DNA of 64,000 nucleotides from Planococcus halocryophilus (GTDB lineage Bacteria; Bacillota; Bacilli; Bacillales_A; Planococcaceae), in NCBI RefSeq assembly GCF_001687585.2, contig NZ_CP016537.2, forward strand, positions 716,001 to 780,000, written 5' to 3'. This document shows, piece after piece, positions 53,600-55,292 of the stretch. Each line of letters opens with the position of its first letter. Positions within the stretch are counted from its first letter, which is position 1. The position numbers and the translations under genes are program-made. Under the pieces are notes generated by a model. It had not been told where the DNA came from. It did no database searches and saw only the letters and a list, made by a program, of their open reading frames with translations.

Positions 53600-53722
53600 G
53601 TAATGTGCAAACAAACACCTGTAATGTGCAAACAAACTCTCGGATTGTGCAAATAAAACCTGGCATCTCGCAAACAAACGTCCCGATACCGCAAACAAAA
53701 CCGATCGTCATGCAAACAAACT
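53600..53722. repeat. Six-copy array of GCAAACAAA at an exact 21-bp period
   Basis: The 9-mer GCAAACAAA (once GCAAATAAA) begins at 53607, 53628, 53649, 53670, 53691 and 53712, always 21 bp apart, with 12 variable bases between. The first three copies are preceded by TGT or TGTG. The array lies between the alpha-glucosidase terminator and the small-RNA terminator. It does not look like a translated gene. Confidence 0.85.
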
Positions 53723-53796
53723 CAAAATCCTCTTGTAAGTCCTTATGTAATCAAAAAATATGCCAAGTAAAGACGTAATCCATACATCAAAACAAC

Positions 53797-53919
53797 AGAA
53801 AAAACCCATCATGCCCGAGGGCATGATGGGTTTCGATAGTTTGCGGCGTTCCAAGCCACGCTCCACAACGTGTTCCTAAAAGGAGTGCTTGTCCGTCTTA
53901 CGCAAACGAGCTCATCGCG
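53797..53919 (-). ncRNA. Unassigned small structured RNA with own promoter and terminator
   Basis: Read leftward, a SigA promoter (53926-53954) should start an RNA near 53919. It can fold with GTTTGCG (53907-53901) pairing CGCAAAC (53845-53839), extended by CGAT/ATCG outside. An inner stem CAAGC/GCTTG encloses TCC-TTTTA-GGA and CACG/CGTG hairpins; CTCC and GGAG could form an alternative or pseudoknot. It ends in a perfect GC-rich terminator (53801-53834; AAACCCATCATGCCC arms) with TTTTTT. No ORF with a ribosome-binding site is inside. It resembles none of 6S, SRP, tmRNA, RNase P or the riboswitches I know. It could be a trans-acting sRNA. Confidence 0.6.
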
Positions 53920-53925
53920 TAGTTA

Positions 53926-53954
53926 ACAATAGAGCATTTGCCGCGATAAGTCAA
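53926..53954 (-). promoter_or_regulatory. SigA promoter of the small RNA
   Basis: On the minus strand, TTGACT (53954-53949), an exact 17-nt spacer and TATTGT (53931-53926). Confidence 0.65.
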
Positions 53955-54158: not shown

Positions 54159-54181
54159 TGCCAAGTGATAAATATTATATC

Positions 54182-54251
54182 GCTCGTATATATTCGGTAA
54201 TATGGTCCGAATGTTTCTACCAGGTTCCCTTTAAAGAACCGGACTACGAGC
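54182..54251 (+). promoter_or_regulatory. Guanine-class purine riboswitch aptamer
   Basis: P1 is GCTCGTA (54182-54188) with TACGAGC (54245-54251). P2 is ATTCGG with CCGAAT and loop TAATATGGT, J2/3 is GTTTCTACC, and P3 is GGTTC with GAACC. These match the purine aptamer core throughout. The specificity base before the P1 3' strand is C (54244, in GGACTACG), which reads guanine/hypoxanthine; adenine aptamers have U there. With the terminator at 54313 it should switch the gene off when guanine is plentiful. Confidence 0.93.
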
Positions 54252-54312
54252 TAGAGTTTTGATTGCTTGGCGTGTGTGAACTCTCCTACTCAATTTTTGC
54301 TTTGGCTCCAAA

Positions 54313-54392: not shown

Positions 54393-55292
54393 ATGACAAA
54401 AATGAAGACAGTAAGTAGCAAACAACTGCTAGTATTCATCATGGCTATGATTTTATTGGTCGTATTGGCAGGATGCAGTTCAGCAGCCGAGTCGAACGAA
54501 ACAGGAAAAGAAACAGACGAAACAAAGCGCCCGATTCTAATCCAAGGACCAATGCCGATCGAAGCTGAAAAGTTCGCGGAGCGTTTGGAAAATGTTGAAA
54601 TAGAAGAATCAGGATCTACATATGAATTTTATATCGGTACTGTCAATGACTACCCGGTTATTGTTTCAAAAACAGGTAAAGGTATGGAAAATACGGCAGC
54701 TGCGACAGCGATCGCAATAGAAAAATACAATCCGGCTGCGATCATCAACCAAGGTACATCAGGTGGACATGATCCAGAGTTGAATGTTTTTGATATCGTC
54801 ATTGGTGAACGCACAGTCAATATCGGTTCGATGAAAACAGGAGATCGTGCAAAAGGTGAAGGCATTGAAGCAACAGAATGGAAGCCAATGGACGTAATGG
54901 CTTCAGAAGGAAGTGCTGGAGAAGATCCAAATGCTGAAAAAGCGCGTTATTATGATGCCGATCCAGAACTTTTAGCTGCAGCAATTAATGTCAAAGACAG
55001 CTATACACAAGGTAAAGTAGTTGAAGGCACAATCGGTTCAGCAGACGTTTGGAATAACGAAGTTGACCGCATCAATTGGTTCCATGAAAACTTCGGTACA
55101 TCAGTCGAAGAAATGGAATCAGCGTCATCTGCGATGATTTCAAAAGCATATGATGTACCGTTTTTAGCAATTCGTATTTTATCAAACAATAAAACAAACG
55201 ACGGTGCGTATAATCCAGACACAGCCGCTGCGAATCAAGAATATGTATATGAAGTAGTTAAAGAGTATATTGCTTTTTTGGAAAGTAACTAA
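54393..55292 (+). CDS. Surface nucleosidase-like lipoprotein (MTAN/PNP fold) under guanine riboswitch
   Basis: A 299-residue lipoprotein; lipobox ends at Cys28 (VLAGCSS) and a charged linker follows. From about residue 48 it has the nucleoside phosphorylase/MTAN fold: ILIQGPMPIEAEKF, VIVSKTGKGMENTAAAT, INQGTSGGHD, then VEEMESASSA near 240 and LAIRILSNNKTND near 260. In cytosolic MTAN enzymes the last motif has the catalytic Asp (R-x-x-SD); here it is SNN. Riboswitch control and surface location suggest it releases purine bases from outside nucleosides for uptake, or binds them. AGGAGG precedes the ATG. Confidence 0.85.
   Translation: MTKMKTVSSKQLLVFIMAMILLVVLAGCSSAAESNETGKETDETKRPILIQGPMPIEAEKFAERLENVEIEESGSTYEFYIGTVNDYPVIVSKTGKGMENTAAATAIAIEKYNPAAIINQGTSGGHDPELNVFDIVIGERTVNIGSMKTGDRAKGEGIEATEWKPMDVMASEGSAGEDPNAEKARYYDADPELLAAAINVKDSYTQGKVVEGTIGSADVWNNEVDRINWFHENFGTSVEEMESASSAMISKAYDVPFLAIRILSNNKTNDGAYNPDTAAANQEYVYEVVKEYIAFLESN

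Follow-up and report, generated by a model that had tools for sequence, protein, structure and literature searches.

RsaE/RoxS and FsrA, two small RNAs of the Bacilli, carry C-rich pairing motifs and are placed in Rfam families separate from that of BsrF. The 6S RNA, a stable structured non-coding RNA acting in trans and in these respects comparable with the RNA considered here, is longer and is built as one long hairpin with an open bubble. The closest described system is BsrF (SR2) of Bacillus subtilis, which, according to PMC3574147, sits between yobO and csaA, is reported to be activated by CodY, and was co-precipitated with Hfq at an RPKM ratio of 7.75, RsaE/RoxS and FsrA being Hfq-bound alongside it. 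The same paper states that no B. subtilis small RNA with a proven target had been found to be influenced by Hfq.

The available portions of PMC3574147, PMC2784878 and PMC5848175 name no target of BsrF, and the sole exception is PMC4634765, which equates SR1 with BsrF and gives the target of SR1, AhrC. Because SR1 and BsrF stand as separate RNAs in the list of PMC3574147, AhrC is probably a target of SR1 and not of BsrF. A further paper, PMC6881298, deals with BsRF2, which is unrelated.

Family membership and transcription signals

The window, by which the whole analysed stretch of 64,000 nucleotides from Planococcus halocryophilus is meant, was compared with all families of Rfam 15. The minus-strand segment 53806-53918 matched RF01411 (BsrF) over model positions 1-113 of 113 with 53.2 bits (E 6.5e-7 for the 64-kb window against all Rfam families), which exceeds the gathering score of 50 bits by a margin of only 3.2 bits, and GCGAUGAGCU, UUUGCGUAAGACG and CGCCGCAA are retained in the alignment of the window to this model. 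BsrF and a purine riboswitch were the only Rfam matches within the window, where the 6S RNA gave no match; SSRC34_2, RefA9 and SNOR75 were rejected as identities with scores far under their gathering scores. The preliminary description had presented the locus as an unassigned small RNA fitting no common RNA or riboswitch known, had proposed a covariance-model search of Rfam, and had named a match to a known family as what would speak against its reading. That search, once run, returned BsrF over the full model and above the gathering score, so the unassigned status falls.

With a probability of about 0.93, the window RNA is taken to be the Planococcus orthologue of BsrF, encoded by a free-standing RNA gene. 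It resembles BsrF of B. subtilis in the full-length model match, the 5' GCGAUGAGCU, the UAAG.CG internal loop, the promoter and terminator signals of its own and the single copy, whereas its locus lies elsewhere, not between yobO and csaA. The named family is already known from B. subtilis, and what is new is a wide alignment in which the 5' end is invariant; one RNA held to be unassigned thus receives a name, and an orphan regulatory RNA gains a wide comparative alignment. The parts of the locus are listed below.

53949-53954, minus strand: -35 hexamer TTGACT (promoter scan, letters checked; TTGAC in 52 of 73 homologous loci)
53926-53931, minus strand: -10 hexamer TATTGT, with a 17-nt spacer to the -35 hexamer
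53806-53918, minus strand: BsrF RNA (RF01411), covariance-model match
53910-53918, minus strand: invariant 5'-terminal GCGAUGAGC, identical in 92 of 92 loci
53901-53907, minus strand: 5' strand of the closing stem P1, GUUUGCG (5 of 7 pairs with two-sided changes)
53896-53900, minus strand: internal loop UAAGA opposite a single C (UAAG.CG in 64 of 64 distinct homologues)
53852-53891, minus strand: P2 together with two nested hairpins, UCCU/AGGA and CACG/CGUG (covariation)
53863-53867, minus strand: apical loop UGUGG (UGUG in 63 of 64 distinct homologues)
53839-53845, minus strand: 3' strand of the closing stem P1, CGCAAAC (covariation, letters checked)
53801-53834, minus strand: intrinsic terminator with a 15-bp stem and a 4-nt loop, then a T run

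The order of promoter, fold and terminator on the minus strand, as first described from the letters, was borne out. The TTGACT-17-TATTGT promoter is present, and a lone match of this kind is unremarkable, 6 promoter-like sites being found against 5.0 expected in 2.2 kb. In all 73 loci scanned among the 92 found, the best -35/-10 pair was in the corresponding position, with 17 nt between the hexamers (spacers of 16-18 allowed, ties given to 17, the -10 hexamer being required to have A at position 2 and T at position 6), while the distance from the -10 hexamer to the first G was 7, 6 or 9 nt depending on the clade. The -35 box of the window is better than that of 21 of the 73 relatives, the weaker boxes belonging to loci L032-L050, L052 and L142.

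A terminator was called by a simple script in 61 of 64 distinct homologues. It had been introduced for the window as perfect and GC-rich; the 15-bp stem and T run stand, but "GC-rich" was generous, with 7 of 15 pairs being G-C. The statement that no ORF is present holds for frames of at least 60 aa, none of which overlaps the RNA, but the region is overlapped by three mechanical ORFs that are short, at 26, 39 and 52 aa. Judging from these signals, a transcript of about 120 nt would run leftward from about 53918/53919, driven by a sigma-A promoter of its own, to the T run near 53797, where the intrinsic terminator would end it.

Covarying fold and invariant 5' end

The 123-nt stretch including the terminator folds at -53.4 kcal/mol (z -5.4), and the core without the terminator gave a z of -1.1, with 22 of 200 shuffles equally stable. 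The fold energy is therefore convincing only with the terminator included, and the strong structural evidence is covariation. For its assessment, 73 of the 92 loci were collected, yielding 64 distinct sequences that were aligned to the in-house model R1, and covariation was counted on 61 distinct rows. In these rows 90.6% of the cells were paired and 17 of 21 base pairs were changed on both sides, which supplies the compensatory changes in relatives that had been called for at the outset. The covariation score was 0.392 against 0.174 +/- 0.008 after shuffling (reached by 0 of 500 shuffles) and fell to at most 0.082 when the partner strand was slid by 1-3 columns, the score being favoured by an alignment that was fitted to the structure. 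RNAalifold applied to an independent MAFFT alignment gave broadly the same stems.

The 7-bp closing stem and the nested stems of the preliminary description both appear in the minimum-energy structure. Helices 3-5 show two-sided changes in 12 of 12 modelled pairs. In P1, at least 59 of the 61 rows form four of the pairs, 47 rows form a fifth, and 40 rows each form the top and the outermost pair; in the window all seven are formed. The pseudoknot suggested as possible found no support: the candidate inspected by eye, in which nt 2-5 would pair with the linker that follows P1, mainly fits the clade of the window, varies in register among clades, and cannot show covariation because its 5' side is invariant.

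These observations also bear on the thought that there is no RNA gene at all and that promoter, hairpin and terminator came together by chance in an intergenic region. The chance-level frequency of promoter-like sites and the ordinary energy of the core fold, each taken alone, would agree with it, but the family match, the covariation and the conserved promoter spacing contradict it, and such a coincidence is exceedingly improbable. The picture of a free-standing structured small RNA gene is instead supported by the Rfam match, the covariation, the promoter spacing and the varied neighbours.

The most conserved part of the RNA is found at its start, among other places. GCGAUGAGC opens all 92 loci found, which comprise the 73 collected (64 of 64 distinct sequences), 13 of 13 more that were read, and 6 more among the matches of a tail-less model, and GCGAUGAGCU opens 62 of the 64 distinct sequences. 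Since the search models contain the 5' tail, a model without it (R2) was built. Over 398 genomes, R2 gave 54 places at E <=9e-8, located in exactly those 54 genomes that the class-level search had matched, and all 30 of its matches that were read carry GCGAUGAGC; no strong relative devoid of the 5' nonamer was found by R2 in these 398 genomes. The next matches, after a gap, were 8 places with E from 8e-4 to 0.09. Five weak matches were fetched (19-25 bits) and taken as chance rather than as relatives, and of four weak places inspected none had the nonamer on the match strand and two had it on the opposite strand. In single-sequence folding, the mean probability of being unpaired was 0.21-0.84 for nt 1-9, which indicates that the 5' end is partly open. 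The alignment thus shows which residues evolution keeps, namely the 5' nonamer and two loops, and hence which to mutate.

Distribution and genomic neighbourhood

The genome (one contig, 3.42 Mb) has one copy of bsrF, and the BsrF family was absent from all of 14 control genomes except that of B. subtilis. The Rfam model matched 52 of the 261 genomes of the family, 49 above the gathering score and 3 just below; 46 of them belong to the genus of the window, 4 to g4, 1 to g5 and 1 to g12, and the 46 would represent all members of the window's genus in the 261-genome set. With R1, the same 52 of 261 genomes were recovered at E <=3.1e-13 and the next match stood at 0.04, giving a bimodal distribution. 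The order-level search gave the same set as the family-level search. Across the class, BsrF was matched in 54 of 398 genomes, which represent 17 of 145 genera, and a phylum sample searched with R1 (n=299) gave 5 matches, all within the class, both scans having used stricter filters by which weak matches may be lost. The family and class searches together amount to 92 distinct loci. The sharp division of one family's genera into those with and those without the RNA provides natural controls for the finding of its partners.

In the window, bsrF is flanked upstream by a divergent nucleosidase-like lipoprotein gene and downstream by an alpha-glucosidase-like gene; the latter is convergent and therefore does not have the bsrF RNA as a leader. 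The protein of this glucosidase-like gene shares 99% identity with one from Planococcus halocryophilus, which makes a Planococcus origin of the window very probable. Six of the glucosidase loci searched (n=42) have bsrF near the glucosidase gene (L058-L062 and L081), and these come from P. halocryophilus, Planomicrobium stackebrandtii, P. wigleyi and three further Planococcus. Neighbours within 1.5 kb cluster mostly within clades, the largest cluster holding 16 protein entries from 73 loci, and no neighbour within this distance is common to all clades of the 73 loci. Neighbours mostly differ across clades, which indicates that bsrF is not tied to one of them. Clusters 3, 8 and 38 are among the exceptions to within-clade clustering: cluster 3 links L055 and L057 with loci of the window's genus (different families), and cluster 38 links L043 with L148, loci of clearly different families. 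In cluster 8, L046, from another family, and L023, L025, L026 and L029 of the window's genus have similar downstream proteins, encoded on the same side of bsrF and on the same strand.

A 110-aa downstream neighbour is common to L033, L039 and L040, and in L033 it is CsaA, as at the B. subtilis locus; a csaA-type neighbour occurs within 1.5 kb in these three alone of the 73 loci, identity having been checked for L033. No csaA stands beside the window bsrF, and adjacency to csaA is not required for membership in BsrF. The genome encodes CodY. The best CodY box upstream of the window bsrF has 6 mismatches of 15, with shuffles as good in 97%, by a scan of unshown power, and over the loci scanned, none of which gave a convincing box, the lowest shuffle fraction was 0.07. 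The scan has no shown power because it found no box in the csaA-type relatives L033, L039 and L040 either. It is tempting to suppose that the Planococcus bsrF promoter may no longer need an activator.

Several minor features surround the gene. A purine riboswitch (RF00167) lies at 54164-54266 on the plus strand (82.1 bits) and precedes an ORF at 54393-55292 on the same strand, which has a lipoprotein-like start by eye and matches the 5'-methylthioadenosine/S-adenosylhomocysteine nucleosidase model TIGR01704 with 75.5 against a cut-off of 73.8; the arrangement is apparently that of a purine switch on a putative exported nucleosidase, divergent from bsrF. The lipoprotein had no match in a scan of viral contigs. 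Between the terminators of the glucosidase gene and of bsrF, a degenerate tandem repeat of about 21 nt with the core TGCAAACAAAC extends over 53602-53730; TRF calls it at 53602-53679, and four exact 10-nt cores reach 53721. Of 21 genomes searched, 3 contain the paired TGCAAACAAAC core, all of the window's genus; this genome is one of the three and has it twice.

Proposed action of the RNA

Because promoter, RNA and terminator stand without a linked gene, the bsrF RNA most likely acts in trans. The likeliest mechanism, to which we give an even chance, is that the invariant 5' nonamer, being partly free in the fold, would serve as the contact site that pairs with a target RNA, that Hfq might help this pairing, and that the core and the terminator would keep the RNA stable. 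The co-precipitation of BsrF with Hfq reported in PMC3574147, together with the hfq gene present in this genome, fits a pairing RNA, although the statement of that paper on Hfq and small RNAs with proven targets points the other way. The searches for a target also spoke against pairing. Exact 10-nt complements of the 5' end numbered 45 in 6 genomes, 6 of them being bsrF itself (39 without), against 25 for the reversed-pattern control, and no orthologous pair appeared among the sense ORFs of the 30 of 45 sites fetched (5 bsrF itself, 25 not). When a 7-nt complement was sought ahead of a ribosome-binding site, 4 of 5 genomes contained 7 sites in total, against 1 for the reversed pattern, a count that is not like-for-like since reversal also destroys the ribosome-site part; the 7 sites had no shared target, two of the ORFs being shorter than 10 aa and the others different genes by eye.

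The conserved internal and apical loops exceed the needs of a plain antisense RNA, and the most conserved residues, namely the 5' end, the UAAG/C internal loop and the UGUG loop, are set in a covarying multi-branched fold. This pattern, and the failure of the 10-nt search in 6 genomes and the 7-nt search in 5 to find a conserved target complement, would agree with a structured RNA that binds or titrates a protein or a small molecule and does not pair with mRNA. We regard this as possible and the less favoured reading, as no protein or ligand is suggested for it except Hfq, on the grounds that PMC3574147 places B. subtilis BsrF among the Hfq-bound small RNAs, and as both target searches are narrow and leave pairing possible. 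It is likewise a tentative proposal that the 5' nonamer and the UAAG/C and UGUG loops might together make up a single surface that binds a conserved protein, a ligand or a ribosomal partner; if this were true, BsrF would titrate or sense in trans rather than act as plain antisense. More remote is the idea that the RNA starts with a near-leaderless mini-ORF (AUG at nt 4) capturing initiator tRNA and ribosomes. All sequences have AUG4, and 63 of 64 distinct ones have an in-frame stop at codon 3 or at codon 6, the latter being the UAA at nt 19-21, but the peptide is not conserved (MS 27, MSSFA 24, MSWSM 5 and six rarer forms), the frame is shifted in one sequence (L047), and the 3 nt upstream are too short for any Shine-Dalgarno sequence. 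UAAG is kept also in sequences that have their stop at codon 3, and the agreement in frame may accordingly be a 1-in-3 coincidence; we consider a mini-ORF very improbable.

As a separate observation, AGCTCATCGC, a 10-nt complement of the BsrF 5' end, occurs at G351:C2:556969-556978 (L184, L226; one g34 genome), directly ahead of a ribosome-binding site and of an ORF spanning 500 aa or more, in one genome of those searched.
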